In this document: piece by piece, positions 3 through 14,643 of the stretch
Layout of the letters: every line of letters starts with the position of its first letter
Numbering within the stretch: the stretch's first letter is position 1
Notes under the pieces: model-generated
What the model saw: only the letters and a program-made list of their open reading frames with translations
Database searches by the model: none
Told to the model about the DNA's origin: nothing
Assembly (NCBI RefSeq): GCF_013340205.1
Contig: NZ_BJTG01000003.1
Coordinates: 62,001-126,000, forward strand
DNA length: 64,000 nucleotides
Direction: 5' to 3'
DNA from: Anaeromyxobacter diazotrophicus
GTDB taxonomy: Bacteria; Myxococcota; Myxococcia; Myxococcales; Anaeromyxobacteraceae
Program-made: the position numbers and the translations under genes

Positions 3-2285
3 CTGGCCGGCCTCGCCACCGAGCCGGTGAGCCAGCTGCCCGCGTGGCGGAGCTACCTGCTGGTCGGGGACGAGCTCCTGCAGCAGCTCCCCGTCGCTGG
101 CCCGGGCACGCCGCCCGAGCTGGTCGCGAAGCAGTCGCGGCAGCCCTGGTTCGAGGACGGTGGCACGGTCCAGGAGCTCTCCGTGGGGACGTTCCGCTAC
201 ACCTTCGCGACCGCGCTGCCGGAGGGCTTCGACCCGGCGGAGACGCTTCGCGTCGGCGTGTGGCTGCGCGAGGTGGTCCCCGGGACACCCGACACCAGCT
301 CGACCTTCGACTTCGTGCCCGCCGGCGGCGCGCCGCGGTCGCGCGAGCTCGTCCTCGACCAGAACTGCAACCACTGCCACGGGCTGCGCCAGGGGCACAA
401 CCGCTCGCGCACCGGCTGGAAGCTCTGCGTCACCTGCCACACCTACCAGCACGCCGACGCCGAGACGGTGGACCCGGCGGCGATGGCAGGCGCGACGCCC
501 GCCACGAACCCGAACCCGCTCGAGTTCGGCCGCCTCATCCACCGCGTCCACCGCGGGCGCCAGCTGCCGACGCTCTATCTGTCGAGCAGCACCGCGCCGG
601 CGCCGGCGCTCCCCCCGCCCGCGCCGGCGGTGGCGCTCCCGCTCCCCTTCGCGGCCAACCGCAACAAGTCGCTCCTCGGCCAGAAGTTCTCGGTGGTCGA
701 CGATCAGAACGGCGCCGGGGAGATGATCTTCGGCCAGGTCATCTCGCGGACCGACAACAACCAGCCGGCGCGGAACCAGCCCACCGGCCTCGTCTACCTG
801 CCCGCGGGGCAGGACTACCGCAACTGCGACGTCTGCCATGCCGGCGCGGCCCAGCAGGGCGAGGTGGTGACCACCATCGCCCGCCGGACCTGCCAGGGCT
901 GCCACCCCGACCTCTGGTATGGCGACGGCCCGACGGACCCGGTCCACCTCGCCCACCCCGGTGGGCCGCAGGCGGACGACACGCGGTGCGCCGGCTGCCA
1001 CGTCGACCCCGGCGCGATCGTGCCGCACTCCGAGGCGCACCAGGCCCCCTTCAAGAGCCCATACTACAACACACTCTCCGTCAAGCTGGTGGCGGTGAGC
1101 GGCATGGTGGCGGGCGGCTTCCCTACTGTGACCTTCTCGGCCAGAGACCTGAACGGCCCGCTCACGCCGTCGCTGACGGCGCCCGTCCCGTTGGCCGACG
1201 CGGGACGGAGCGGCCGGGCGAGCCCGGTTCCGCGCGCGCTCGCCAGCGTCAGCTTCACGCTCATCGGCCCGTCCACCGAGTACCTGAGGACCAGCCCGAC
1301 CGTCAGCGACTCGACCAGCGCGACTTCGTCTCCTCCCCGCCTGGCCGTGGAGGACCCCGTCGTCAAGGGCCAGTACTCCTACACCTTCACGAAGGCCCTG
1401 CCAGCGACCGCCTCCGGCACGTGGACCGTCGTGATCACGGCCAGCCGGAGCGTCAAGACCGCCGTCTACGACAACACCGGCAAGTTCACGTGGCCGTACA
1501 CGGGCGAGACCCTCGCCGAGACGACCGACAACGACGTCCAGTACGTCGACCTCGCCGCGGGGGTCTGGCCGGGCGGCACGCCCGTGCCGCGGCGGCGGGT
1601 GGTGGACACCGCGAAGTGCAACGTGTGCCACCTGCGGCTCCAGATGCACGGGAGCCGCAACCAGGTGCAGTACTGCGTGACCTGCCACACCGCCGACTTC
1701 ACCGACTTCGGCTCGAGGCCGAAGCGGGCCGACAAGTCAGGCATGGTCAACCTCTCGACGGTCACGACCTCGGCCACCACCGGGCTCCCGGTGGCCGCCA
1801 CCTACGACGGCATCGAGGAGCGCTCGGTGCACCTCAAGGTGATGCAGCACCGGATCCACACCGGGTACCGGACCGGCAGCGCCTCGCTCGGCCTCGCCAA
1901 GCCGTTCGTCATCGTCTTCGGCAGCCCGTACTTCTTCGACGACGTGACCATGCCGAACATGATCCGGAACTGCACGCTGTGTCACGTCGGGAACGCGTTC
2001 GAGATCGAGAACATCGATTCGAGGCAGGCCTACACCGTCGCGAACGAGACGCCCAACCTCCAGCACCAGGGAACCCCCGCCGCTCCGGCACCGAGCACCC
2101 ATTCGCCGAACGAGCCGCACACGCCGCCCATCACCGCCGCGTGCATGGGCTGCCACGACACGCAGGCGGCCCTCACCCACTCGCGGCAGTTCACGACGCT
2201 CGACAACGTCGAGCAGTGCCTCCCCTGCCACGGGCGCGACGGCGTGAGCCCGGTGGCGGCCGTCCACGGGGTGAGCCTCCCATGA
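3..2285 (+). CDS. Decahaem c-type cytochrome, OmcA/MtrC family (5' partial)
   Basis: Outer-surface multihaem cytochrome expected to deliver respiratory electrons to extracellular acceptors. The frame is open to the window edge, so the signal peptide and true start lie upstream; a GTG at 27 is only an internal candidate. Ten CxxCH motifs are visible in two groups of five: nt 366-1001 (CNHCH, CVTCH, CDVCH, CQGCH, CAGCH) and nt 1617-2232 (CNVCH, CVTCH, CTLCH, CMGCH, CLPCH). About 200 residues without haem separate them. This beta/pentahaem/beta/pentahaem layout is that of MtrC and OmcA. The stop overlaps the next start (ATGA). It heads a five-gene operon with a beta-barrel and small cytochromes, which supports a porin-cytochrome role. 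The family call is firm; the electron acceptor is unknown. Confidence 0.9.
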   Translation: MAGLATEPVSQLPAWRSYLLVGDELLQQLPVAGPGTPPELVAKQSRQPWFEDGGTVQELSVGTFRYTFATALPEGFDPAETLRVGVWLREVVPGTPDTSSTFDFVPAGGAPRSRELVLDQNCNHCHGLRQGHNRSRTGWKLCVTCHTYQHADAETVDPAAMAGATPATNPNPLEFGRLIHRVHRGRQLPTLYLSSSTAPAPALPPPAPAVALPLPFAANRNKSLLGQKFSVVDDQNGAGEMIFGQVISRTDNNQPARNQPTGLVYLPAGQDYRNCDVCHAGAAQQGEVVTTIARRTCQGCHPDLWYGDGPTDPVHLAHPGGPQADDTRCAGCHVDPGAIVPHSEAHQAPFKSPYYNTLSVKLVAVSGMVAGGFPTVTFSARDLNGPLTPSLTAPVPLADAGRSGRASPVPRALASVSFTLIGPSTEYLRTSPTVSDSTSATSSPPRLAVEDPVVKGQYSYTFTKALPATASGTWTVVITASRSVKTAVYDNTGKFTWPYTGETLAETTDNDVQYVDLAAGVWPGGTPVPRRRVVDTAKCNVCHLRLQMHGSRNQVQYCVTCHTADFTDFGSRPKRADKSGMVNLSTVTTSATTGLPVAATYDGIEERSVHLKVMQHRIHTGYRTGSASLGLAKPFVIVFGSPYFFDDVTMPNMIRNCTLCHVGNAFEIENIDSRQAYTVANETPNLQHQGTPAAPAPSTHSPNEPHTPPITAACMGCHDTQAALTHSRQFTTLDNVEQCLPCHGRDGVSPVAAVHGVSLP

Positions 2286-3475
2286 CCTCCCTCTCCGCCT
2301 TCGCCCGGCGCCTCGGCGCCGCCGCGCTCCTCGCGACGCTGGCGGGCTGCTCCTCGCCGCGCGTCGAGCGGGCGCCGGCCGACGTGACGTTCAGCGTCGG
2401 GATCATCGACGGCAACCCCGGGATCCCGGTCGTGGGCGGCCCGCCCGGGAACGGCGGCGCGCCGCAGACCGCCACCACCGTCCACCTCAAGTTCCTGGGC
2501 GGGGCGCCCGGGCCCTTCACCGTGGTGGCGCAGCGCCTGGCGCGGCCGCCGGCCGCCGGCCAGCCGGTGGACTGGACGTCCATCCCGGCCAGCACCGTCC
2601 CGCTCGTCCCGGCGGCGGAGGCGGTGGGCCTGTCGAAGGAGGCCTGGAACACCGAGTTCCAGGCCGCGCTCGGCTACCTGCAGGTCTGGGACTACGGCAT
2701 CTACGACGTGGACATCAAGGCCGCCTACGACGACCAGCGGCTCTACCTGCAGCTCCAGTGGCGCGACTCGACGCAGAGCCTCGCCCACCACGACTGGATC
2801 TACCGGGTCGACCCGGCCACCGGGCTCGGCGCGTTCGCGCGCCGGACCACCGACGAGGACGTCGTCTACCTCTCCTTCCTCATCGACCCCGCCGCGGCGG
2901 GGCGCGCCGCCTCGGGCTGCACCACCGCCTGCCACGTGAGCGAGCGGCGCGGCGCGACCACCCCCGACGACCTCGCCTACCGGTTCACGATGCACGCCGC
3001 CGCGCCGGGCCTGCGCGCGGACTCGTGGGCATGGCACGCCGGCCGGACGAACCCGCTCGGCCTGGCGGACGACGCCTCCTGGGACGAGGCGGGCCTGTAC
3101 GGCGACTGCCCCGACCCGCCGGCCTGCACGCAGCTGTGCGCCGGCGGCGAGGCGCCGCCGTGCAGCACGCCCCCGTACGCCGGCGACGACGACGCGCCGG
3201 CGCCGGCGCCGCTCTTCATGTCGGCGGACGGGATCGACGCCAGCCCCGCCTTCCTCTTCCTCGGCGGTGCCGGCGCGCCCGCAGCGGTGCCCTTCGATCC
3301 CGGCGCGGCGGCCTCGGCCGGCGCGACCCTCCCCGGCGCGGCGCTCCAGCGGCCGAGCGCGCACCGCGGCGACGTGAGCGCCCGCGGCACCTGGGCGAAC
3401 GGCGTCTGGACCCTCGAGCTCTCCCGCGACCTGGTGACGTCAGACCCGAACGACGCGCAGTTCCCCCTCCAATGA
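2282..3475 (+). CDS. Lipoprotein with ethylbenzene-dehydrogenase-like haem domain
   Basis: Predicted 397-aa lipoprotein: hydrophobic signal ending in LATLAGC with Cys23 as the lipidation site. The middle (about residues 120-200) has the strand pattern of EB_dh-type haem-binding domains (DVDIKAAYDDQRLYLQLQW) found in b/c-haem electron carriers. It also carries a CTTACH (CxxxCH) motif near residue 222, a possible extra haem site. Further Cys pairs follow (CPDPPACTQLC, then APPCSTPPY). Start ATG overlaps the stop of the decahaem gene by four bases, and its own stop overlaps the next start, so translation is probably coupled. Likely a periplasmic or outer-membrane-anchored electron-transfer partner. 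The EB_dh assignment is by eye and moderate. Confidence 0.7.
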   Translation: MTSLSAFARRLGAAALLATLAGCSSPRVERAPADVTFSVGIIDGNPGIPVVGGPPGNGGAPQTATTVHLKFLGGAPGPFTVVAQRLARPPAAGQPVDWTSIPASTVPLVPAAEAVGLSKEAWNTEFQAALGYLQVWDYGIYDVDIKAAYDDQRLYLQLQWRDSTQSLAHHDWIYRVDPATGLGAFARRTTDEDVVYLSFLIDPAAAGRAASGCTTACHVSERRGATTPDDLAYRFTMHAAAPGLRADSWAWHAGRTNPLGLADDASWDEAGLYGDCPDPPACTQLCAGGEAPPCSTPPYAGDDDAPAPAPLFMSADGIDASPAFLFLGGAGAPAAVPFDPGAAASAGATLPGAALQRPSAHRGDVSARGTWANGVWTLELSRDLVTSDPNDAQFPLQ

Positions 3476-3903
3476 CCCGCGCCCTCCCAGCCGCCCTCAC
3501 GCTCACCTTCGCGCTCGCCTGCGGCGGGCCACGCACCGGCGCGGCCGTCCCCGCCGCCGCGCGCGGCCCGGCGGCGACCTACGCCGACGTCTCGGCCGTC
3601 TTCGCGATGAGCTGCGCCACCCAGGGGTGCCACACCGGCCACCCGCCCGCCAACACGCCGGACTCGTTCGACCCGCAGTACGCCTACGACGCCCTGGTGG
3701 GCCAGCCGGCCCTCCAGGTCCCCTCCCTGCCGCTCGTCGACCCGGGGAACCCGGACCACAGCTACGTGGTCCTGAAGGTCCGCGGGACCGCCTCGGGCGT
3801 GGGCGGCGTCGCCACCCGCATGCCGCTCAACGCCCACCCGCTGTCGGACGAGGACCAGGCGGCCCTCGAAAGCTGGATCCTCGCCGGAGCCTCCCATGAC
3901 TGA
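3472..3903 (+). CDS. Small lipoprotein with atypical CX4CH haem-type motif
   Basis: 143-aa exported protein: signal peptide with a possible lipobox (FALAC, Cys17). The only haem-type motif is CATQGCH (Cys48, Cys53, His54), which has four rather than two residues between the cysteines. CX4CH is a recognised variant in some c-type cytochromes, often in short PSCyt-like or lipoprotein cytochromes. The C-terminal half (a VDPGNPDHSYVVLKV segment, then a MPLNAHPLSDEDQAALESWI-type helix) is the usual fold end of such domains. Start and stop overlap the neighbours by 4 and 8 bases within the conduit operon. It is probably a monohaem periplasmic or outer-membrane relay. Haem attachment is inferred, not shown. 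Confidence 0.7.
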   Translation: MTRALPAALTLTFALACGGPRTGAAVPAAARGPAATYADVSAVFAMSCATQGCHTGHPPANTPDSFDPQYAYDALVGQPALQVPSLPLVDPGNPDHSYVVLKVRGTASGVGGVATRMPLNAHPLSDEDQAALESWILAGASHD

Positions 3904-5038
3904 ACGCCTCCTCCTGCGCGCCGCCGCCGCGGCCCTCCTCGGCCTGGCCCTGCTCGCCGCGGCGCCGGCGGGCGCGCGCTCGACCGTGAACGTGTCGGGC
4001 TCCATCTACGTGGACCAGTGGTGGCTCTCGAAGAAGGCCGCCAGCGACCGCACCGTGGGGACCATCACCCCGGACGGCGCCCTCAAGGTGTCGGTGGACG
4101 TCCACGACGAGCTCGCCATCTCGGCCAAGGCCTGCTTCAGCTGCCACGGCATCGAGATGGAGCACTTCAGCCTCGACTACACGCCGAAGGCCTACTTCAA
4201 CGTGTCGGCGGGCCGGGTGGTGGTGCCGTTCGGCGAGTACGCGAACCGCGTCGACCCCTCGAGCCACCGCACGGTGAGCGCGCCGCTCATCTTCGACATG
4301 GGCCGGATCCCCTACGGCGACCGGACCGGGTGGAACCTCGGCGTCGTGCCCGCGCCCTACGTCGACACCGGCGTGGTCGTCTACGGCCAGACCTGGATCG
4401 GCGAGCGGGTCCAGGTCTGGTACGGCGGCTACGGGGTGGCCGGGCTCCGGGGCTCGAACGACGTGGACTTCGCCTCCATGCGCTCGTCCTACTACGCGGA
4501 CAACAACCGCGTGCCGAGCGGCGGCGCGCGGCTCGCCCTCACCTGGTCGCAGCAGGATCCCTCCTTCGTGATCGGCGACGTGAGCCTGGGCGGCTCCTTC
4601 ACCGGCGGCCGCTACGACCAGGCCGGCACGCTCGGCTACAAGGCCTGGGGGGTGGACGCGCAGACGCGGATCGGCCCGTGCGTGGTGCGCGCCGAGTACG
4701 CGGCGCGCAGGACCGACGTCGATCGCAGCGCGGCCGGGTACCGCTTCGACGTGATCGACCCGTACTTCGACAAGCGCGGCTGGTACGCCGAGCTGGAGCA
4801 CCCGCTCGGCAAGTGGGTGGGCGCCGTCTACCGGGTCGAGCGCATGGAGCGCCTCGGGATCCCGGTCCCGGGGACGCTGCCGGTCATCGGCCCGGAGGCG
4901 AGCATCAAGCGGTACACCGCCGGGCTCATGATCACGCCGGCCGCCTCCCTCTACCTCAAGGCGAGCTACGAGTACTGGGAGATGACCGGCATCGGCGCCA
5001 TCCACTCGACCCACGCCGGGATCGGGGGGAGCTTCTGA
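3896..5038 (+). CDS. Outer-membrane beta-barrel carrying one CxxCH
   Basis: 380-aa protein with a clear signal peptide (cleavage after about residue 27, AGA-RS). The rest is composed of alternating polar/aromatic strands rich in Tyr, Trp and Gly (for example VQVWYGGYGVAGL) and ends in Phe (GIGGSF), as outer-membrane barrels do. Unusually it holds a haem motif CFSCH at residues 80-84, after the second or third strand. It occupies the MtrB-like porin position in the operon, between surface cytochrome and small cytochromes, but is about half the length of MtrB. I infer an electron-conduit porin. A simple phosphate/metal porin is the alternative, but that would not explain the haem motif. Confidence 0.75.
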   Translation: MTERLLLRAAAAALLGLALLAAAPAGARSTVNVSGSIYVDQWWLSKKAASDRTVGTITPDGALKVSVDVHDELAISAKACFSCHGIEMEHFSLDYTPKAYFNVSAGRVVVPFGEYANRVDPSSHRTVSAPLIFDMGRIPYGDRTGWNLGVVPAPYVDTGVVVYGQTWIGERVQVWYGGYGVAGLRGSNDVDFASMRSSYYADNNRVPSGGARLALTWSQQDPSFVIGDVSLGGSFTGGRYDQAGTLGYKAWGVDAQTRIGPCVVRAEYAARRTDVDRSAAGYRFDVIDPYFDKRGWYAELEHPLGKWVGAVYRVERMERLGIPVPGTLPVIGPEASIKRYTAGLMITPAASLYLKASYEYWEMTGIGAIHSTHAGIGGSF

Positions 5039-5382
5039 TGCTCGCCGCCACCCTCGGGGCCGCGCTCGCGCTGCAGCTCGCGCTCGGCCAGCAGGCGGAC
5101 TGGGACCCGCGCGACGACGGCCCGGGGACCATCGACGTGTCCGACTACCCGGAGGCGCAGCAGAAGGAGTACGCGCTCTTCAAGGTGAAGTGCGCGAAGT
5201 GCCACCCGGTGTCGCGCCCCATCAACTCCCAGTACGACGCGACCAACTGGAAGCGCTACATGAAGCGCATGATCCGCCGGCCCAACTCCGGCATCAACGA
5301 GCAGCAGGCGGTCGCGCTCTACGACTTCCTCAAGTACTACAGCTCCCGGACCGCCCCGAAGGGCGGCGGCGAGCAGCCCTGA
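5038..5382 (+). CDS. Small monohaem c-type cytochrome
   Basis: 114-aa periplasmic protein with a short signal peptide (residues 1-18) and one haem motif, CAKCH at 52-56. It is followed by a helical tail containing Met residues (YMKRMIRRP) that could supply the distal ligand. The final helix (EQQAVALYDFLKYYS) matches the C-terminal helix of class I cytochromes. Its ATG shares one base with the stop of the barrel gene, so it is the last member of the conduit operon. Expected role: soluble shuttle between inner-membrane or periplasmic donors and the outer-membrane complex. The next gene starts 13 bases downstream but is a signalling gene. Confidence 0.85.
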   Translation: MLAATLGAALALQLALGQQADWDPRDDGPGTIDVSDYPEAQQKEYALFKVKCAKCHPVSRPINSQYDATNWKRYMKRMIRRPNSGINEQQAVALYDFLKYYSSRTAPKGGGEQP

Positions 5383-5395
5383 CCGGACGCCGACG

Positions 5396-7288
5396 GTGGC
5401 CCTCGCCCTCGCCCACGCGCAGAGCTCGCTGCGCTTCCGCCTCTTCGCCGCGACGGTGGTCGTCGTGGGCGCGGCGCTCGCGTTCTCGATGGTCGGATTC
5501 GAGCACGTGGCGCGCGGCGTGGTCCTCGACGCCACCCGCTCGCACCTCGCGGCGCGGGCGCGGGAGGTGCTCGAAGCCACCCAGCGCTTCCAGCGCGAGC
5601 GCGCGCTCACCACCCGCAGCTGGGCCGAGGCGGACGCGATGCAGCTGTCGCTCGAGTCCGGCGACCCCAAGTTCGCGGAGGACTACCTCCTGCGCTCGAT
5701 CCAGGACCAGGGCGGCGCGTTCGCCGTGGCGGCCCTGCTCGACGCCCGGGGGCGGGTCGTCTGCGCCGTGCACGCCGCGCCGGAGGGCGAGCGCCACGGC
5801 AGGTCGCTCGAGGCGCTGCGCGGGCGGCGCGTGGCGCTGCGGGCGGTGGCGGAGGTCGAGGGCGGCGCGAAGCTGGCGGTGACGGTGGCGACGGCCCAGG
5901 CGCTGGGCGCCGCGGCCGAGGAGAGCCCGGCCCTGGTGCTGGCCGCGCCGGTCCGCGACTTCACCGGGGACCTGGTGGGGGTGGTGGTGGGGGTGGTCTC
6001 CCGGCCCGCGGTGGGCCGGCTCCTGGCCGAGATCGCCGGCGCGGACCCGGCCTACGTCCCGGTGGTGGCCGACGCCGAGCGGCGGCTCGTCACCACGCTG
6101 CCGGGCGTGTCGGCCCCGGCGGTCGAGGCGCTGCTGGCGCCGGGCGAGGACGGCGGCCGCGGCCTCGAGCGCCACGCGGCCGGGGGCGGCCGGTGGCTCG
6201 CGATGCGGACCGCGCCCGGCGCCGAGACCCCGGGCTGGAGCGCGCTCATGGCGGTCTCCGAGCAGGAGGCCTACGGGACGCTGCGCCGGCTGCGGCGGCT
6301 GCTCATCGGGATCTTCTCGCTGGTGCTCGCCGGGGCGAGCGTCGCCAGCATCGCCGCGCTCCGCCGCGCCGCGCAGCCGCTCGCCGAGGTGGCGGCCTCG
6401 ATGGTGCGCGTGTCGACGGGCGACCTCACCACCCGCCTGCCCGACGCCTACCGCGACGAGCTGGGGCGGCTGGTCCAGTCGTTCAACACCATGGTCGCCG
6501 AGGTGGAGCGCTCGCACGGCGAGCTGAAGCGGACCGAGGCGCTGCGGCGCGAGATGCAGATCGCGCAGTCCATCCAGACCGCGATCCTGCCGCGCGCCCC
6601 CGCGCTCCGGGAGTTCGAGCTGGCGGCGCGCATGAAGGCCGCCGAGGACGTCGGCGGCGACCTCTACGACATCCTGGCCTTCCCCGACACCTTCTGGCTC
6701 GTCATCGGCGACGTGTCCGGCCACGGCCTCCACGCCGGCCTCATCATGCTGATGGCGCAGGCCGCCGCCCACGCCGCCATCACCAGCGCGCCCCACGGCG
6801 CGCCGGCCGAGGTGGTCGCCTGCGTGAACCGGGTGCTGCACGAGAACGTGCGCCGGCGCATGGGCCGGGACGACTACCTCACGCTCATGGTGGCGCGGTA
6901 CGCCGGGGCCGGCCGCTTCGTCGCGGCCGGGGCGCACCAGCCGGTCCTGGTCGCGAGCCCGGGCGGCCGGGTCGACGCGGTCGAGCCGGCCGGCCCCTGG
7001 TGCGGGGTCATGGAGGACGTCCGGCGGCACCTCGTCGAGTACGAGCTCCAGGTCGAGCCGGGGGGCCTCCTCTGCCTCACCACCGACGGGATCGTGGAGG
7101 CGCGCGGGGCCGGCGACGCGCTGTACGGCCAGGAGCGGCTCGTCGAGGTCCTCTCCGGGCGCGCGGGCGCGAGCGCGCCCGAGGTGCTGGCGAGCGTCTT
7201 CGCGTCGGTGGAGCGCTTCGCGTCCGTCCAGGACGACGACATGACCGCCGTCGTGCTGCGGCGAAGGGAGACCGATGACACCGTCTGA
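5396..7288 (+). CDS. Membrane HAMP-PP2C (RsbU/SpoIIE-type) phosphatase
   Basis: 630-aa membrane receptor-phosphatase. TM1 lies near residues 18-40, an extracytoplasmic sensor (CHASE4-like, about 40-295) follows, TM2 is near 300-318, and HAMP runs about 320-375 (ends SFNTMVAEVERS). The C-terminal PP2C domain is complete: EDVGGDLYD, GDVSGHGLHA, TTDGIVEARG and the final DDDMTAVVL supply the metal-binding aspartates. Such enzymes dephosphorylate a STAS-type antagonist in partner-switching pathways. The two following genes, overlapping in order, encode exactly the HATPase and STAS-like partners. Start is GTG at 5396, the only initiator placed before TM1. The ligand is unknown. Confidence 0.9.
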   Translation: MALALAHAQSSLRFRLFAATVVVVGAALAFSMVGFEHVARGVVLDATRSHLAARAREVLEATQRFQRERALTTRSWAEADAMQLSLESGDPKFAEDYLLRSIQDQGGAFAVAALLDARGRVVCAVHAAPEGERHGRSLEALRGRRVALRAVAEVEGGAKLAVTVATAQALGAAAEESPALVLAAPVRDFTGDLVGVVVGVVSRPAVGRLLAEIAGADPAYVPVVADAERRLVTTLPGVSAPAVEALLAPGEDGGRGLERHAAGGGRWLAMRTAPGAETPGWSALMAVSEQEAYGTLRRLRRLLIGIFSLVLAGASVASIAALRRAAQPLAEVAASMVRVSTGDLTTRLPDAYRDELGRLVQSFNTMVAEVERSHGELKRTEALRREMQIAQSIQTAILPRAPALREFELAARMKAAEDVGGDLYDILAFPDTFWLVIGDVSGHGLHAGLIMLMAQAAAHAAITSAPHGAPAEVVACVNRVLHENVRRRMGRDDYLTLMVARYAGAGRFVAAGAHQPVLVASPGGRVDAVEPAGPWCGVMEDVRRHLVEYELQVEPGGLLCLTTDGIVEARGAGDALYGQERLVEVLSGRAGASAPEVLASVFASVERFASVQDDDMTAVVLRRRETDDTV

Positions 7289-7802
7289 GGGGCCCGCCCG
7301 CGGCGCGCCCAAGCCGATCCTGCTCTTCCTCCGGATGTGCCCGGTGTGGGTCTTCGTGGACGAGGTGCGCCACTTCGTCGAGTCGTTCTGCGCCTGCGCC
7401 GGGGTGAGCCCCGAGCGCGAGTCACAGCTCGCCCTGGCGACGCACGAGCTGATGCAGAACGCGATCACGCACTCGACCTCCGCCTGCATCGAGCTGCGGC
7501 TCGCCATCGACGCCGGGCGGGACGCGGTGGAGGTGAGCCTCACCAACGACTGCAGCCCGGGCGCCCCCGAGGCGCTCCGGTCGCGGCTGGCGGCGCTGCA
7601 GGCCGAGCCGCCGCTCGCGAGCTACCTGCACACGATGGCGGCCGACCCCCGCGCGCGGGGCGGGCTGGGGCTGGCCCGCGTCCGGTACGAGGCGCAGCTC
7701 GAGCTCGACGTAACGACGGAGGCCGGCCGCCTGACGGTCAAGGCCTTCGGACAACTGAATCCGCCGCCGCTGGCGGCTGCCACAGGAGCATCCCATGGGT
7801 GA
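7275..7802 (+). CDS. HATPase-type anti-sigma/switch kinase (RsbW/SiaB-like)
   Basis: 175-aa GHKL-fold protein. The N-box ELMQNAITHS and a degenerate G-box GGLGLARVR are present, as in serine-kinase anti-sigma factors of the RsbW/SpoIIAB class; no transmembrane segment is seen. It starts inside the end of the PP2C gene (14-base overlap) and overlaps the STAS-like gene by 8 bases, so the three are translationally coupled. Expected role: phosphorylate the STAS-like partner and release or sequester a target when the phosphatase acts. No sigma factor or diguanylate cyclase lies nearby, so the final target is unknown. A SiaB-type kinase/scaffold is the main alternative. Confidence 0.8.
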   Translation: MTPSEGPARGAPKPILLFLRMCPVWVFVDEVRHFVESFCACAGVSPERESQLALATHELMQNAITHSTSACIELRLAIDAGRDAVEVSLTNDCSPGAPEALRSRLAALQAEPPLASYLHTMAADPRARGGLGLARVRYEAQLELDVTTEAGRLTVKAFGQLNPPPLAAATGASHG

Positions 7803-8202
7803 GTCGACGACCGCCGCCGCGCGAGCCGGGGCGAGCTTTCAGGTGAGCGACCAGAAGTACTCCGCGGCGCTCGCCACCTCGGGCGCCGCGCCGGTGGTGC
7901 GCTTCCTCGGCACCGTGAGCACGCCCAACCCCGCGAGCGTCCTGAACCCGTTCGTGGAGGCGGTGCACGAGGAGGTCGGGCGCACCGGCGCGAAGGTCGT
8001 GACGGTGGACTTCAGCGAGTTCGAGTTCTGCAACTCGTCGGGGTTCAAGTCCTTCATCTACTGGATCGAGCTCATCCGCCAGCTCCCGGCGGAGCGCCAG
8101 TACCGGCTGCGCTTCCTGGTCGCGCCGGGGCGCCGCTGGCAGAAGACGAGCCTGCTCGTGCTCACCTGCTTCGCCACCGAGGCGGTCGAGATCGCCGCAT
8201 GA
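7795..8202 (+). CDS. STAS-like antagonist of the partner-switch module
   Basis: 135-aa soluble protein. The segment VTVDFSEFEFCNSSGFKSF is the beta-strand/loop/helix where STAS and SiaC-like antagonists carry the phosphorylated Ser/Thr; here the two serines of CNSSG are candidates. A conserved C-terminal region follows (RWQKTSLLVLTCF). The arrangement resembles cyanobacterial slr1659-type regulators, which work with a HATPase and PP2C partner. Overlaps with both neighbours fix the operon order phosphatase, kinase, antagonist. Assignment to a partner-switching antagonist is from context and motif; the exact superfamily needs a profile search. Confidence 0.75.
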   Translation: MGESTTAAARAGASFQVSDQKYSAALATSGAAPVVRFLGTVSTPNPASVLNPFVEAVHEEVGRTGAKVVTVDFSEFEFCNSSGFKSFIYWIELIRQLPAERQYRLRFLVAPGRRWQKTSLLVLTCFATEAVEIAA

Positions 8203-8444
8203 GCGCCGCCGGCGCCGGATCCGGAGGCGGCTGCCCGAAGCGCGCCATGTGCGACGCGGTGTTCGCGCACGTGACCTTCGCGCCCAGCGCGGGGGTGGTG
8301 CGCGCGCTGTACTGCGAGGCGCGCTTCGAGGCCTGCGAGCGCTTCCGGCTGGCCGCCGCAGGCCGGCCGGTCCCGCCGACGCTGCGGCCGGACGGGACCG
8401 AGCGCCGGAGCGCGGGGAGGGCGCGGGGCGCCGGCGGGCGGTGA
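8199..8444 (+). CDS. 81-aa cysteine-rich protein of the partner-switch operon
   Basis: No function recognised. The start overlaps the STAS-like stop (ATGA), so it belongs to the operon. Four cysteines form two pairs: CPKRAMC (residues 12-18) and YCEARFEAC (about 49-56), followed by a conserved-looking ERFRLAAAGRPVPPTLRPDG. The spacing is suited to a bound metal or Fe-S cluster, or to a redox switch. There is no signal peptide or membrane segment. The basic low-complexity tail after residue 66 looks disordered. It could be the output or a redox-sensing accessory of the module; this is inference. Confidence 0.75.
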   Translation: MSAAGAGSGGGCPKRAMCDAVFAHVTFAPSAGVVRALYCEARFEACERFRLAAAGRPVPPTLRPDGTERRSAGRARGAGGR

Positions 8445-8501
8445 GCGCGCGCCGGGGGCCACGCTCCCGAGTCCTCCGCGGCTCGGCCGGCTCTCACCCG
8501 C

Positions 8502-9668
8502 ATGTCCAAGCACGCACTGGTGGCCGGCGGCGGCTTCGCCGGGCTCGAGGCCGCCATCCAGCTCCGGCGGGCCGGGCTGGACGTCACCCTGGTCTCGAAT
8601 CGCCCAGCGCTCTGCATCTACCCCATCTCGATCTGGGTCGCGACCGGCGAGCGGCAGCTCGACGACGTCTGCCTCGACCTGGCGGACGCTGCCCGCCGGC
8701 ACGGGTTCCGCTTCGTGGTCGGTGAGGTCGAGGCGCTCTCCGGCGCGCGCCGCTCGGCCACCGTGAACGGCCTGGAGCTCCAGGCCGATCACCTCGTGGT
8801 CGCCGTGGGCGGCGAGAAGCTGCGGCCGAGGGGCGTCGAGCACACCTTCTCGCTCGGCGGAGATCCGGCCGGCGCGCAGCGGCTCGCGGCGGCGCTCTCC
8901 GCCCTCATGGCGAAGGGGCGCGGGCGCGTCGCGATGGGGTTCGGGGGAAACCCCAAGGACCCCTCGGCCGCGCGCGGCGGCCCCGCCTTCGAGCTCATGT
9001 TCAACGTGGACGCGCTGCTCCGGCGGCGCGGGCTGCGCGACCGCTTCGAGCTGACGTTCTTCGCGCCCATGGCGAGCCCGGGCGAGCGCATGGGCCAGAA
9101 GGCCGTCGCGGCCATCCAGAGGATGTTCGGCCGCGTGGGCGTGGCGATGCGCTTCGGGAAGAAGATCGCCGGCTTCGAGCCGGGCGCGGTGCTGTTCGAG
9201 GACGGGGCTCGGCTCGCCTCGGACCTCGTGGTGTTCCTGCCCGCGGGCGAGGGCGCCCCGGTGGTGAAGGCCTCCGACCTGCCGAGGAGCGAGGCGGGCT
9301 TCGTCGAGACCGACCCGGGCTGCGCGGTGCCGGGCTTCCCGGGCGTGTGGGCGATCGGCGACGCCGCCGCGCTGCAGGGGCCGGAGTGGCGCGCGAAGCA
9401 GGGGCATCTGGCGGAGGTGATGGCGCGCGTGGCCGCCCGGAACATCGCGGCCGCCGAGGAGGGCCGCGCGGAGCGGGAGAGCTACCTGCCCCACGTCGGC
9501 ATCACCTGCCTGCTCGACATGGGCCACGGCGCCGCGTACGTGCACCGCGACGGCCGGGGCGAGCGGATGATCCCGCTGCCGGTGGTGGGCCACTGGCTCA
9601 AGAAGGGCTGGGGCGGCTACTACAAGCTCTCGAAGAAGAAGCTCGTGCCGCGGCTGCCGGGGCTGTGA
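8502..9668 (+). CDS. FAD-dependent SQR/NDH-2-like oxidoreductase
   Basis: 388-aa flavoprotein with an N-terminal Rossmann FAD motif (VAGGGFAGLEAA, residues 7-18) and the second FAD contact near the end (GVWAIGDAAAL). Its C-terminus (GHWLKKGWGGYYKLSKKK) resembles the amphipathic membrane-binding tail of type II NADH dehydrogenases and sulfide:quinone reductases. Cysteines occur, but I cannot place the catalytic SQR disulfide pair confidently, so quinone reduction with NADH or sulfide as donor are both possible. It stands 57 bases after the Cys-rich gene on the same strand and may share its transcript. Confidence 0.75.
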   Translation: MSKHALVAGGGFAGLEAAIQLRRAGLDVTLVSNRPALCIYPISIWVATGERQLDDVCLDLADAARRHGFRFVVGEVEALSGARRSATVNGLELQADHLVVAVGGEKLRPRGVEHTFSLGGDPAGAQRLAAALSALMAKGRGRVAMGFGGNPKDPSAARGGPAFELMFNVDALLRRRGLRDRFELTFFAPMASPGERMGQKAVAAIQRMFGRVGVAMRFGKKIAGFEPGAVLFEDGARLASDLVVFLPAGEGAPVVKASDLPRSEAGFVETDPGCAVPGFPGVWAIGDAAALQGPEWRAKQGHLAEVMARVAARNIAAAEEGRAERESYLPHVGITCLLDMGHGAAYVHRDGRGERMIPLPVVGHWLKKGWGGYYKLSKKKLVPRLPGL

Positions 9669-9859
9669 ACCGGCCGCCCTGGGCCCCCGCGCTCCCCTGC
9701 CGCCCCCGCCCGCGGCGCCCTGCGCGGGCCGCCGCGCGCCTCGGGCGTTCACCCGATGCGGGGCACCGGACTCATACGTCGCACCTTCGGTGATCGGCCC
9801 AATTTCGGCGGGGCCGCGGGAGGCGCACACTCTCATCATCGAAGCGAAGGAGGGTGGCC

Positions 9860-10273
9860 ATGGCGAAGACCTACGCAGGCGGGACCCCGGTGAAGAGCGG
9901 CTACTACATCGACGCGAGGAGCTTCGCGTTCGCGAACGTGGCGCGGGACGGCGGCGCGCTCCCCGGCGGCGCGGGGAACAAGTTCGCCCGCGTCCCGACG
10001 CTGGTCGTCATGGCGGCGGCGCCGGCCCTCGGCGGCCTCTTCGTGGTGGCGCTGCCGTTCATCGGCGTGGGGGTGGTGGTGAAGGCGCTCCTCCGCGCGA
10101 TGGCGGGCGGCGCGAAGGAGGTCGCGGCCACGGTCGCCACGCCGGCCATGCCGGCGGGCTCGACCGCGCTCACCGGCAAGCCGCCCGAGGAGGGCGCCAC
10201 CGGCAAGCCGGCCGCGGACGAGAAGGCCGAGGCGCTGGCGAAGGAGATCGCGGCGAAGCGCTCGGAGAAGTGA
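9860..10273 (+). CDS. Unknown protein with one or two hydrophobic segments
   Basis: 137 aa, family not recognised. ATG at 9860 is preceded by a good Shine-Dalgarno run (AAGGAGGG at about 9847-9854); a GTG two codons earlier would place the SD too close. The protein has a polar N-terminus, a hydrophobic stretch at about residues 45-75 (VVMAAAPALGGLFVVALPF then GVGVVVKALL) and a charged Lys/Glu-rich tail. It is probably an inner-membrane or membrane-associated protein. It is a single-gene unit followed by a hairpin terminator. Confidence 0.7.
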   Translation: MAKTYAGGTPVKSGYYIDARSFAFANVARDGGALPGGAGNKFARVPTLVVMAAAPALGGLFVVALPFIGVGVVVKALLRAMAGGAKEVAATVATPAMPAGSTALTGKPPEEGATGKPAADEKAEALAKEIAAKRSEK

Positions 10274-10305
10274 GCGTCGCCGGAGTCCAGAGCAGGGTGG
10301 GGCGG

Positions 10306-10331
10306 GGGCGCTGGCGAGCACGCCAGCGCCC
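10306..10331. terminator. Hairpin between convergent genes
   Basis: Perfect 11-bp stem GGGCGCTGGCG (10306-10316), loop AGCA, CGCCAGCGCCC (10321-10331), sitting between convergent genes ending at 10273 and 10355. No T-run follows on either strand, so it may be a bidirectional, weakly intrinsic or Rho-assisted terminator. Confidence 0.7.
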
Positions 10332-10354
10332 TCGGCGCGTCCGGCCTCGCGCGG

Positions 10355-11080
10355 CTAGCGCTTGGGGCCGCCGCCCGGCGGCTTGCCCGCGCCGCCGCCC
10401 GGCCGCCGCCCGGCGCCGGGGCGGCCGCGCCCGCCCCCGCGCTCGTTCTTGCGGTCGTCGCGCAGCGAGTCCATGGAGAAGCCACCGGTCGCGGCGCCCG
10501 CGCCCTTGCCGCCGCCGCGGTCGCCACCGCCGCCGCGCCCGCCGCCGCGCTTCCCGCCGCGCCCGCGCTCGTCCTTGGGAGACCCGCCGACCTGCCGCAT
10601 GTGCTGCGGGTGGAAGTCGACCAGGTACTGGTGCTCCCCGATCGCCTTCGCCCCGCTGAGCGGCTCCTCCTTGCCGAAGACCCGGACCAGGCGCACGTCC
10701 TCGGTGCGCCGGCCGACGGCCTCGACCGCGGCGCGCAGCATCGTCAGCCGATCGCCGGAGCAGCCGGTGGCCTTGGCGACCGCCTCGTCGAGCGCCGCCT
10801 TCACCGCGTCGCTCTCCGGCGCCGGCTCGGGCTTGCCCTGCGGCTTCGCCTCGGGCGCCGCGGCGGCGGGGGTGGCGGCCGGCTCCGGCGCGGCCTGGGC
10901 GGCGGCCTCGCCGCCCGCCTCGGGCGCGGCGCCCTCCGCCGGCTGCGCGGGCGCGGCCGCGGGGGCCTCGGAGGGCTTCTCCTCGGCCGGGAGCGAGCGC
11001 CTCGCCTCCGCGATGGCGGCCGCAGCCGTGCGAATCAGGGTCCCGCTGAGCTCGGTCAGAGTTTTCACGCGCGTAGCCAT
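10355..11080 (-). CDS. Unknown protein with Ala/Pro linker and RGG-like tail
   Basis: 241 aa from the ATG at 11080. The longer open frame upstream is Arg/Pro-rich and looks non-coding. Three parts are visible: an N-terminal helix (TLTELSGTLIRTAAAAIAEARRS), a long Ala/Pro/Glu linker (about 35-90), and a compact domain at about 93-160 (CSGDRLTMLRAAVEAVGRR, then EHQYLVDFHPQH). The last 80 residues are Gly/Arg-rich with repeated RGG/GGGRGG units, which often bind RNA or drive condensate formation. No named family is recognised. A nucleic-acid-binding role is inferred only from the RGG tail. Confidence 0.7.
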   Translation of the reverse strand: MATRVKTLTELSGTLIRTAAAAIAEARRSLPAEEKPSEAPAAAPAQPAEGAAPEAGGEAAAQAAPEPAATPAAAAPEAKPQGKPEPAPESDAVKAALDEAVAKATGCSGDRLTMLRAAVEAVGRRTEDVRLVRVFGKEEPLSGAKAIGEHQYLVDFHPQHMRQVGGSPKDERGRGGKRGGGRGGGGDRGGGKGAGAATGGFSMDSLRDDRKNERGGGRGRPGAGRRPGGGAGKPPGGGPKR

Positions 11081-11384
11081 ACACCACGGGCTGCGCGGCG
11101 AAAAGGCCGCGCGGAGCGTCTCCCCCTCCGCCGGCCGGCCGGGCGGGCGCGCCGCCGGGCGGCCGCCAGCCGGTGAGGGGAGGTGGGCTCCGGCCCTGCC
11201 CGCTCCGCCGCGCGCGCACACGGACGCATCCGGTGTCCGAGTGACCCTGGGCAACTTGACGCTGTATTCCCAGACACACATCGACAGCTCCACTCGGGGT
11301 GTCCTAGCCTCTGGGAAGTTCGACTCTCAGTAATCGAGCGTCGGCCACTGTCGGTGAACGCCTGGCGAGACCGGAGAGGGCGGC
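11081..11384. other. Divergent intergenic region upstream of hydrogenase operon
   Basis: About 300 bases between the start of the RGG-tail gene and the hydrogenase small-subunit gene. It must hold both promoters. A TTGACG hexamer occurs at 11256-11261, but I see no convincing -10 element at normal spacing. A GG-N10-GC match near 11249 is too poor elsewhere to call a sigma-54 promoter. No gene is supported here. Confidence 0.5.
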
Positions 11385-12278
11385 ATGTTCACGAGACGTG
11401 ACTTCCTGAAGTGGAGCACCAGCTCGGCGGCGGCGCTCGGGCTGTCGCAGACGGGGCTCTTCCGCCTGCAGCAGGCGCTCGCGGCGGAGAGCTCGCCGCC
11501 CCTCATCTGGCTGCACGGCGCCAGCTGCTCGGGGTGCTCCATCGCCGCGCTCAACGCGGTGTCGCCGACCACGGTCGGCGACGTGCTCCTCAACAAGGTC
11601 TCGGCCAAGTACGACGCGCTGCTCATGGCGGCGGGCGCGGATCAGGCCATCCGCGCCATGGACCAGGCCGCGGCCGCGGGCCAGTTCATCCTGGTGGTGG
11701 AGGGCGGGGTCCCGGTCGCGGCGGGCGGCCGGTACTGCACCATCGGCGATCGCGGCGGCCGGCCCATCACGCTCCTCGACGCGGTCAACGACCTCGCGCC
11801 GCGCGCCTCGCGCGTGCTCGCGGTCGGCACCTGCGCCGCCTACAAGGGCGTGGCCGGCACCGGCGCCAACCCCACCGGCGTGACCCCGCTCTCGACCGTG
11901 CTGCAGGGCAAGACGGCGAAGCCGGTCATCAACGTGCCGGGCTGCCCGGCGCCGCCCGACCAGCTCTTCAAGATCATCGTGGGCCTGCTGGCCGGCGGCG
12001 AGTACGCGCTCGACCTGGACGGCCGTCCGGGCACCTGCTTCCCGCACACCGTCCACTTCACCTGCCCCCGCAAGCACCTGCCCAAGGCGAAGGCCTTCGG
12101 CGAGCCGGGCTGCCTCCTCAACCTGGGCTGCCAGGGCAAGGTGACGATGGCGATGTGCCCCAAGCACAAGTGGAACAACGGCAAGAACTGGTGCGCGCAG
12201 GCGGGCCACCCCTGCATCGGCTGCGCGGCGCCCGAGTTCCCCGCGTCGCCCCTGACGCCGGCCGGCACCTTCATCTGA
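11385..12278 (+). CDS. Periplasmic NiFe hydrogenase small subunit
   Basis: 297-aa Fe-S subunit that relays electrons from the NiFe site. The N-terminus has a twin-arginine export signal (TRRDFLKW). Proximal-cluster cysteines are seen in CSGCS, GTCAAYKG and PGCPAPP; medial/distal ligands lie in the C-terminal third (HFTCPRKH, GCLLNLGC, MAMCPKHKWN, NWCAQAGHPCIGC). At the NWC position, standard enzymes with a medial 3Fe-4S cluster have Pro; the Cys here suggests a 4Fe-4S cluster. The chain ends soon after GCAAPEF and lacks the C-terminal membrane helix of HyaA/HybO-type subunits, so the enzyme is soluble or held by partners. First gene of a three-gene unit; the large subunit begins 20 bases later. 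Confidence 0.93.
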   Translation: MFTRRDFLKWSTSSAAALGLSQTGLFRLQQALAAESSPPLIWLHGASCSGCSIAALNAVSPTTVGDVLLNKVSAKYDALLMAAGADQAIRAMDQAAAAGQFILVVEGGVPVAAGGRYCTIGDRGGRPITLLDAVNDLAPRASRVLAVGTCAAYKGVAGTGANPTGVTPLSTVLQGKTAKPVINVPGCPAPPDQLFKIIVGLLAGGEYALDLDGRPGTCFPHTVHFTCPRKHLPKAKAFGEPGCLLNLGCQGKVTMAMCPKHKWNNGKNWCAQAGHPCIGCAAPEFPASPLTPAGTFI

Positions 12279-12298
12279 GCGGACGAGGGCCAGACACC

Positions 12299-13744
12299 AT
12301 GGAGAAGCGAATCACGGTCTCACCGGTGACGCGCATCGAGGGGCACCTCGGCCTCGAGCTCGAGATCAGCGAGCGGGGCACCGTCCTCGCCGCCTACGCC
12401 TCCGGGACGCTGTTCCGCGGGTTCGAGAGCATCATGCGCGGCCGGGATCCCCGGGACGCCATCCACCTCACCCAGCGCATCTGCGGGGTGTGCCCGGTCC
12501 CGCACGCGCGCACCGCGGTCGAGGTGCTGGAGGCGGCGTTCGGCGTCCAGGTCTCCCGGAACGCCACCCTGCTCCGGAACCTGGTCCAGGGCGCGGGCTC
12601 CGTCTCGGATCACATCCTCCACTTCTACCACCTGGCCCTGCTCGACTACGTCCACGGGCCGGCCATGCCGCCGTACACCCCGGCCATCTCGGCCGACCAG
12701 CGGTTCTCCGAGGCGGAGGCGGCGGTGTTCGCCGACCACTACCTGCAGGCGCTCGAGATGCGGCGGCGCGCGCAGGAGATGGGCGCGCTCTTCGCCGGGA
12801 AGCTCCCGCACGTCATGACCTTCGCGCCGGGGGGCGTCACCCAGCAGCCGACCGCCGCCAGCGTCGCCGACTTCCGGAGCGGCCTCGACCAGCTGATCCC
12901 GTTCATCGAGAACGTGTACATCCCCGACGTCATGAAGGTGGCCGAGCGGTACCCCGACTACCTCGAGATCGGGGCCGGGCCCGGCAACCTGCTCTCCTTC
13001 GGCGCCTATCCGGACGGCGCCGGCGGCCAGCTCTTCGAGGCGGGGAAGTTCCTGGAGCACGGGCACCCCCGCGGCGAGCACAGCTGGAACTGGGCGGAGC
13101 GGCCGGGCGACGAGCACGCGCGCCGCCACGTCTTCCCCCTCACGGCCGGCGACGTCGCCTCCATCGACGAGTCGGTGAAGCACGCCTTCTACGGCGGCCC
13201 GCGCCGTCACGGCGGCGACCCCGCCACGCCCAACCCGGACAAGCCCGGCGCCTACTCCTGGGTGAAGGCCCCGCGCCTCGGCGACGAGGTGTTCCAGGTG
13301 GGCGCGCTGGCGCGCATGATCGTCAGCGGCAACTACCGCGGCGGGCTCTCGGTCATGGACCGGCTCCTCGCCAACGCCTTCGAGACCGCCAAGGTGGCCG
13401 GCGCCATGCGGACCTGGCTCGACGGGCTCGCGCTGGACGGGAGCGGCTACCAGCCGGTCACGACCATGCCCAAGGCCGGCCAGGCGGTCGCCCTGACCGA
13501 GGCGCCGCGCGGCGCGCTGGCGCACTGGCTCGAGTACGCGGACGGCAAGGTGACCGGCTACCGGATCATCACGCCGACGTCCTGGAACGCCTCGCCGCGC
13601 GACGACCGCGAACGGCCCGGCCCCATCGAGCAGGCGCTGATCGGCGTGCGCGTCGCGGATCGCAGCCAGCCGGTGGAGGTCTACCGGGTGATCCACTCGT
13701 TCGACCCGTGCATGGGCTGCGCCGTGCACACCACCATCGTCTGA
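12299..13744 (+). CDS. NiFe hydrogenase large subunit
   Basis: 481-aa catalytic subunit for H2 oxidation or evolution. Both NiFe ligand motifs are intact: RICGVCP at about residue 59 and DPCMGCAVH at the C-terminus. After the final His only TTIV remains, the short peptide that a HyaD/HybD-type endopeptidase would remove after nickel insertion. RIEGHL near the N-terminus is the usual family signature. ATG at 12299 is chosen because the longer open frame upstream lies inside the small-subunit gene. The protein is exported with the small subunit by the Tat pathway. No maturation gene (hyp or endopeptidase) lies in the window, so these must be supplied elsewhere. Confidence 0.95.
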   Translation: MEKRITVSPVTRIEGHLGLELEISERGTVLAAYASGTLFRGFESIMRGRDPRDAIHLTQRICGVCPVPHARTAVEVLEAAFGVQVSRNATLLRNLVQGAGSVSDHILHFYHLALLDYVHGPAMPPYTPAISADQRFSEAEAAVFADHYLQALEMRRRAQEMGALFAGKLPHVMTFAPGGVTQQPTAASVADFRSGLDQLIPFIENVYIPDVMKVAERYPDYLEIGAGPGNLLSFGAYPDGAGGQLFEAGKFLEHGHPRGEHSWNWAERPGDEHARRHVFPLTAGDVASIDESVKHAFYGGPRRHGGDPATPNPDKPGAYSWVKAPRLGDEVFQVGALARMIVSGNYRGGLSVMDRLLANAFETAKVAGAMRTWLDGLALDGSGYQPVTTMPKAGQAVALTEAPRGALAHWLEYADGKVTGYRIITPTSWNASPRDDRERPGPIEQALIGVRVADRSQPVEVYRVIHSFDPCMGCAVHTTIV

Positions 13745-13782
13745 GCCGCGGAACGCTCGTGCAATCTTCACGGAGGGGAGCC

Positions 13783-14643
13783 ATGTCGAAGCAGGCGAAC
13801 GGAGTGGTCTCGAGGCGCGCCTTCCTCACCGGCGCGGGCGGCGCCGCGGCTGCGGCCGCGGGCCTGGTCGCGCTGGGGCTGCCGGCGGCGGCGGAGGCGC
13901 AGGCGGCGCCGTCGGTCCCGTGGCCGCTGCCGGTGCTGAACCCCGACGTCGCGCGCGACGCCGGGTACTTCGGCTACTGGACGAACGACCCCTGGAAGAA
14001 CACCAACTACGGCTGCGCCTACGGCGTGGCCTCGGCGCTGCTCGCGTCCATCCGGAGCGCGCTCGGCCCGGGCTCGCCCTGGGACGGGCTGCCGCTCGAG
14101 ATGTTCAAGTGGGGCAAGACCGGCTGCGTCGAGTCGGGCACGCTCTGCGGCGCGCTGGCCGGCGCGCTGCCCATCTTCTCCCTGGCCGCGCCGGCCTCGG
14201 TGGTGGAGATGGGCGGGGACCTCCTCCGCTGGTACCAGGAGACGCCGCTCCCGTCGATGGAGATGGACTGGCTCGACCCCAAGCGGCGCTACCCGCAGCA
14301 GGCGCAGAGCGTCTCCGGCTCGCCGCTGTGCCACATCTCGGTGTCGAGCTGGTGCAAGGTCTCCGGCAAGCTGTCCGGGTCCACCGACCGGAAGGCGCGC
14401 TGCGGGAAGATCACCGGCGACGTGGCCAAGATGGCGGCCATCATCCTCAACCGCTTCGGGTCGAGCTCGAAGTACGTGCCCATCTATGCGGCGCAGCCGG
14501 ACCTCTACGCCGAGTGCGTCCACTGCCACATCGACGCGCCCCCGCCGCCCACCCCGGACGGCGTGCGGCTCAACAACAGCCTCGGCATCTCGAACTGCAA
14601 GACCTGCCACCCCGACGCGGCGCCGGTGATGAGCAAGAAGTAG
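13783..14643 (+). CDS. Tat-exported split-Soret-type dihaem cytochrome (C_GCAxxG_C_C family)
   Basis: 286-aa protein, ATG at 13783 after the SD GGAGGGGAG. The N-terminus is a Tat signal (SRRAFLTGAGG). The body has the C_GCAxxG-like pattern YGCAYGVASALL followed by TGCVESGTLCGAL, and two haem motifs close the chain (CVHCH near 245, CKTCH near 273). This combination matches split-Soret cytochrome c precursors known from sulfate reducers. Additional cysteines (PLCHISVSSWCK, ARCGK) could hold an Fe-S centre. As the third gene of the hydrogenase operon it probably takes electrons from the small subunit, replacing a membrane cytochrome b. The partner role is inferred from position. Confidence 0.85.
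   Translation: MSKQANGVVSRRAFLTGAGGAAAAAAGLVALGLPAAAEAQAAPSVPWPLPVLNPDVARDAGYFGYWTNDPWKNTNYGCAYGVASALLASIRSALGPGSPWDGLPLEMFKWGKTGCVESGTLCGALAGALPIFSLAAPASVVEMGGDLLRWYQETPLPSMEMDWLDPKRRYPQQAQSVSGSPLCHISVSSWCKVSGKLSGSTDRKARCGKITGDVAKMAAIILNRFGSSSKYVPIYAAQPDLYAECVHCHIDAPPPPTPDGVRLNNSLGISNCKTCHPDAAPVMSKK

Follow-up and report, generated by a model that had tools for sequence, protein, structure and literature searches.

We analysed a window of 64,000 nucleotides from the 4.83-Mb genome of Anaeromyxobacter diazotrophicus (bases 62001-126000 of contig 3), which begins within an operon encoding two cytochromes c, two further lipoproteins and a small outer-membrane porin (hereafter, the barrel). The barrel itself carries a haem c attachment motif (CXXCH) that is conserved in its relatives across Myxococcota, and we propose that a small redox module of the outer membrane may be built around it, with the barrel as the conserved core. 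The upstream sequence (L009) was added to the window, which made the operon complete and covered 12 kb upstream.

The operon and its genes

The features of the locus, in window coordinates, were as follows.

3..2285 (within the window), + strand: OmcA/MtrC-family decahaem lipoprotein, 833 amino acids in full (TIGR03507, PF22113, 10 CXXCH)
2282..3475, + strand: EB_dh-domain lipoprotein, 397 amino acids (PF09459), CX3CH at residue 213
3472..3903, + strand: small PSCyt1-like lipoprotein, 143 amino acids, CX4CH (CATQGCH) at residue 48
3896..5038, + strand: the barrel, a predicted 16-strand OprP/OprO-like porin, 380 amino acids, single haem c motif
4133..4147, + strand: CFSCH, barrel residues 80-84, at the predicted tip of hairpin beta3-beta4
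4298..4300, + strand: M135 in barrel loop L3, invariant in 23/23 aligned barrels, candidate distal haem ligand
5038..5382, + strand: exported monohaem class-I-like cytochrome c, 114 amino acids, CAKCH at residue 52
5396..8202, + strand: regulatory module of a SpoIIE phosphatase with HAMP and Cache-like sensor, an RsbW-type ATPase and a small third protein

An earlier, sequence-only reading of this DNA had described five overlapping genes. The open reading frame calls agreed, placing all five on the + strand, each overlapping the next (2282-2285, 3472-3475, 3896-3903 and position 5038, which is both the barrel stop and the start of the monohaem cytochrome), and a codon-usage gene caller concurred, three of the five operon genes being in its training set. 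The decahaem protein proved to be a member of the OmcA/MtrC family as claimed, with exactly 10 CXXCH, 281.7 bits against TIGR03507 (cut-off 209.3) and a PF22113 match of 2.2e-37, although its gene starts upstream of the window, by 217-226 bases (L009:11775 or 11784, ending at L009:14285). The EB_dh assignment was likewise sound (PF09459, 83.4 bits against a gathering score of 33.3, E 3.4e-23), but the CX3CH of this lipoprotein (CTTACH) had been overlooked; it is kept in all full-length homologues among those listed. The CX4CH of the small lipoprotein is retained in its close homologues, and the monohaem cytochrome has weak similarity to SorB (E 0.002). The gene upstream of the operon is divergent and has neither a haem motif nor a Pfam match. 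Neither the 12 kb upstream nor the remainder of the window was found to contain an MtrA-like or further multihaem gene, in line with the earlier suggestion that such a partner was missing; an MtrA-like gene just ahead of the window, which that reading had named as an objection, is thus absent. A few kb past the operon (window 11385-14643) lie genes for [NiFe]-hydrogenase-like small and large subunits, followed by a gene for a Tat-signal protein with two CXXCH.

The haem motif of the barrel and its predicted position

CFSCH belongs to the barrel, as had been read from the sequence, and is its sole CXXCH; shuffling the mature protein 20,000 times produced any CXXCH in 5 cases. Conservation was assessed in 31 readable loci of the family and in an alignment of 23 proteins, whose lowest pairwise identity was 33%. 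CXXCH occupied the aligned place in all 31 loci, across Myxococcota, and C80, C83 and H84 were invariant in the 23 aligned barrels, as was the glycine after the histidine; other cysteines were not conserved. Besides H84, the only invariant methionine or histidine was M135. The sequence-only reading had held that a haem role would fall if orthologues lacked CFSCH, an objection that this invariance removes. The context of the motif (KxCxxCHG) resembles that of cytochromes c, and the best PDB sequence match to the barrel lands on the motif (cytochrome c555, non-significant at E 0.011). The haem-attachment machinery family PF01578 occurs three times in the genome.

Relatives of the barrel were found in Anaeromyxobacteraceae and, at ~36-44% identity, also in Myxococcaceae/Archangium-type and other Myxococcota. 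One of the two genome-scan patterns included CXXCH and was biased to that extent; the profile search of the phylum was independent of the motif. In the latter, all readable matches with E <1e-90 had CXXCH and none of the weaker matches examined (E of at least 1e-25) did. Weak porin matches without the motif (L117-L124) were cysteine-free porins and were excluded as family members. Outside Myxococcota, no relative was detected in a pattern scan of 84,980 species genomes, with patterns that miss divergent members, and the plasmids searched were also devoid of any.

The AlphaFold2 (AF2) model built from the 23-sequence alignment predicted 16 strands, with a mean predicted local distance difference test score (pLDDT) of 81.6 and a predicted template modelling score (pTM) of 0.81. 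Its nearest solved fold was OprP (Z 27.4, root-mean-square deviation 3.0 over 304 residues), followed by OprO, and the Porin O/P family PF07396 gave weak matches in 4 of the 23 members (best E 0.002). The small size noticed earlier was thereby confirmed, and scans of Pfam and NCBIfam gave no match of the barrel to MtrB_PioB. Strands 1 and 2 (30-44 and 57-68) precede the CXXCH, which spans the end of strand 3 (73-83) and a one-residue turn ahead of strand 4 (85-98); the motif is thus in a strand and turn, not in a helix as cytochromes c usually have it. A second model was led by the distant orthologue L061 and again had 16 strands, two of them before the motif, and the CXXCH at the same hairpin. 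Both models are haem-free. The side of the motif has long loops (110-155 and 182-207) and the opposite side short turns, so that by the usual rule for porins the motif would face outwards.

Partners of the barrel and other electron-transfer genes

Across loci, the recurrent partners of the barrel are the small CX4CH lipoprotein and the monohaem cytochrome, a homologue of which adjoins the porin in most Anaeromyxobacteraceae loci. The Archangium group has a dihaem cytochrome in place of the monohaem one, with neither an adjacent lipoprotein nor OmcA. The barrel of two more distant loci is preceded by a PSCyt1-like lipoprotein (PF07635 just below cut-off) and by a different lipoprotein. EB_dh is frequent among the barrel loci. 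Among loci with a CXXCH barrel, OmcA was found only in Anaeromyxobacteraceae, where several Anaeromyxobacter species have it in the opposite orientation. What recurs is the barrel with a small cytochrome, often accompanied by a PSCyt1-like lipoprotein, OmcA being an addition specific to one lineage. In two metagenome-assembled genomes (MAGs; L053, L054) EB_dh continues at its C-terminus into the CX4CH domain, as OmcA does in one (L055), through glycine-rich linkers and without an internal signal peptide, which argues that all three domains lie on one side of the membrane.

Other arrangements were also recorded. One MAG contig (L046/L057, MEMX01000117.1) bears two copies of the haem-porin operon, with OmcA in each, and a 769-amino-acid protein encoded near a haem-porin operon (L110 13213-15522) has two EB_dh-like stretches and two CX3CH. 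In L060, L061, L063, L065 and L069 the gene directly upstream of the barrel encodes an NAD(P)-binding-type protein of ~160-210 amino acids, and most of these loci have a convergent protein-kinase gene past the dihaem cytochrome.

Using proteins of a relative (L031) as queries, we found in the same genome an ordinary Pcc pair on another contig (G000:C2:16548-18952), consisting of a 12-haem protein (52% identity) and a 425-amino-acid porin (41% identity) and matching the two-gene Anaeromyxobacter cluster of PMC4245776. There is a second 12-haem gene on C4, and two further OmcA/MtrC-family genes have no porin adjacent. Scanning the genome with TIGR03508 for MtrA gave only sub-threshold multihaem matches; TIGR03509, for MtrB, gave no match, but its control was silent too, so that absence is not established. 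A cluster at G000:C8:131-139 kb (L135), encoding 20-, 10- and 11-haem proteins, a 584-amino-acid protein of unknown family and an Fe-S/membrane protein, is another possible electron-transfer system. At G000:C4:108.7-112.1 kb (L126 6778-10082), 16-haem and 26-haem genes are neighbours, with genes for 298- and 569-amino-acid proteins alongside.

Proposed role and relation to known systems

The most economical reading is that the barrels form a family of monohaem cytochrome-porins in Myxococcota, of the same kind as Cyc2 but separate from it in sequence, motif and haem position. We consider it fairly probable that the barrel is haemylated and has a role in transferring electrons at the outer membrane or across it. 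One haem c would be attached at the CXXCH, at the tip of the beta3-beta4 hairpin and near the outer mouth of the pore, possibly with M135 as distal ligand. The periplasmic side would have a mono- or dihaem cytochrome c, and the opposite side the PSCyt1-like lipoprotein together with EB_dh, OmcA or both. In Anaeromyxobacter, the barrel would most likely relay electrons between the surface lipoproteins and the periplasmic cytochrome, in a direction that, like the bridging of the gap across the outer membrane, we infer as part of the proposal. In relatives without OmcA, the barrel would probably oxidise a soluble substrate, as Cyc2 does. A bolder version, which we hold to be possible but doubtful, gives the barrel the only transmembrane haem in a direct conduit, of a class found throughout Myxococcota; the barrel wall would hold the haem, coordinated by H84 and by M135 of the pore loop (His/Met), electrons would be exchanged through it by a periplasmic monohaem cytochrome and surface lipoproteins, and no multihaem protein would be threaded through the pore. 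The sequence-only reading had gone in this direction by suggesting that the barrel and the small lipoproteins provide the wire. The haem motif does belong to a conserved barrel, but the predicted haem is at one rim, and a lone haem near the outer rim cannot bridge the membrane by itself, so that a wire is unproven.

Several observations weigh against a haem-bearing barrel that conducts electrons. By strand length on the haem-free models, the motif is ~25 Å from the periplasmic side, which would be too far for one fast hop from a single haem near the outer rim. Two loci (L062, L064) have no cytochrome gene next to the barrel. The small lipoprotein of the two more distant loci has CXCH, not CX4CH, which makes haem on it doubtful. 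Finally, a related porin (L116; G108:C27:107001-125000, 8302-13657) lacks CXXCH, with one cysteine and one histidine aligned (PCVAHNN), and its neighbours are an OmcA-type decahaem gene and a gene homologous to that of the monohaem cytochrome; the gene set can thus occur without a barrel haem, either lost or not yet gained. L116 may show the same module before a haem was acquired or after its loss.

The barrel could instead serve only a Cyc2-like inward route, in which a soluble donor, a reduced ion or small molecule, enters the pore and gives its electrons to the barrel haem, from which they go on to the periplasmic cytochrome, OmcA having a separate task. This seems rather unlikely: the Archangium-type loci, which hold just the barrel and the dihaem cytochrome, the opposite orientation of OmcA in several species and the porin class shared with Cyc2 (OprO/OprP; PMC8406198) are consistent with it, whereas OmcA is part of one overlapping gene run in the window and shares a polypeptide with the CX4CH lipoprotein in L055, and the motif is on the side of the long loops, away from the periplasmic mouth proposed for Cyc2.

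The sequence-only reading had also noted that no MtrA-like partner was present, which holds for the locus; elsewhere in the genome, the Pcc pair could serve the decahaem protein. The haem-porin is therefore not the only possible conduit of the organism, and the Pcc pair might export electrons, including to the OmcA of the window, leaving the haem-porin to act as an assembly factor or accessory channel. The pair does adjoin OmcA and the barrel operon in A. oryzisoli (L047/L031). However, it is on another contig here and apart from the operon in the other relatives seen, and such a route leaves unexplained both the invariant CXXCH and the barrels of loci without OmcA; we judge it unlikely.

That the CXXCH holds no haem, and is a disulphide or metal site stabilising the hairpin, appears quite improbable. 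In its favour, the motif is in a strand and turn, L116 retains only one cysteine, and MtrB is known to have a functional CXXC. Against this, the histidine and the following glycine are as invariant as the cysteines, the neighbours are cytochromes, and exported CXXCH proteins of cytochrome-rich organisms are normally haemylated. Least probable is redox sensing, in which the module would report an extracellular redox partner to a downstream RsbU-RsbW switch: the SpoIIE/HAMP/Cache-like gene begins 13 bases 3′ of the operon, it neighbours the monohaem gene in almost every Anaeromyxobacteraceae locus, the RsbW-type ATPase and small protein follow in that family, and protein-kinase genes adjoin many Archangium-type loci, but the regulatory genes vary by lineage, myxobacteria are rich in protein kinases and a decahaem protein exceeds what a sensor needs.

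The proposed haem-porin shares traits with several known systems. The phosphate-selective porins OprP and OprO have the same predicted fold and, to our knowledge, neither a haem motif nor cytochrome neighbours. MtrCAB is similar in that a surface decahaem protein of the MtrC/OmcA family is encoded beside the barrel, but MtrB is a far larger barrel that encloses the decahaem MtrA, and our locus has neither similarity to MtrB nor an MtrA-like gene. Pcc complexes likewise have a small outer-membrane porin within a cytochrome gene cluster; their porins have 18-22 predicted strands and are paired with a 5-14-haem periplasmic protein (PMC4245776), of which there is none at the barrel locus.

The sequence-only reading had stated that known conduits place haem in cytochromes threaded into the barrel, which overlooks Cyc2 (PMC8406198) and GM18_3465 of Geobacter sp. 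M18 (PMC4245776). The latter is a predicted 21-strand barrel of one species with 10 haem motifs in long, exposed loops (PMC4245776), whereas here a conserved family has one motif in a tight hairpin. Cyc2/Cyt572 share with the barrel one CXXCH, a 16-strand OprO/OprP-like porin of ~400 amino acids and small periplasmic carriers (PMC8406198, PMC10654088). Cyc2 differs in having an N-terminal cytochrome domain, the proposed plug of the periplasmic mouth, which the barrel lacks; the CXXCH of the barrel sits where strand 3 turns into strand 4, on the side with the long loops. The Cyc2 motif, defined as PXFAR[Q/K][T/Y] upstream and PXL downstream of CXXCH (PMC8406198), was present in 0 of 23 barrels. 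The barrel family, its internal motif, the hairpin placement and the partner set are undescribed in the literature searched, which omits most subscription journals.

Cyc2 is a precedent for haem on a porin, and GM18_3465 is the one earlier prediction of haem motifs in the loops of a barrel. If haem is present, the barrel would be a second, apparently independent way after Cyc2 to make a porin redox-active, with the haem in the barrel wall, and it would offer a direct test of whether one haem and a pore conduct electrons through the outer membrane. Should the proposal be true, a minimal conduit of one barrel and one small cytochrome would join the few known, and many Myxococcota would gain a route for extracellular electron exchange missed by searches for MtrCAB, Pcc and Cyc2.

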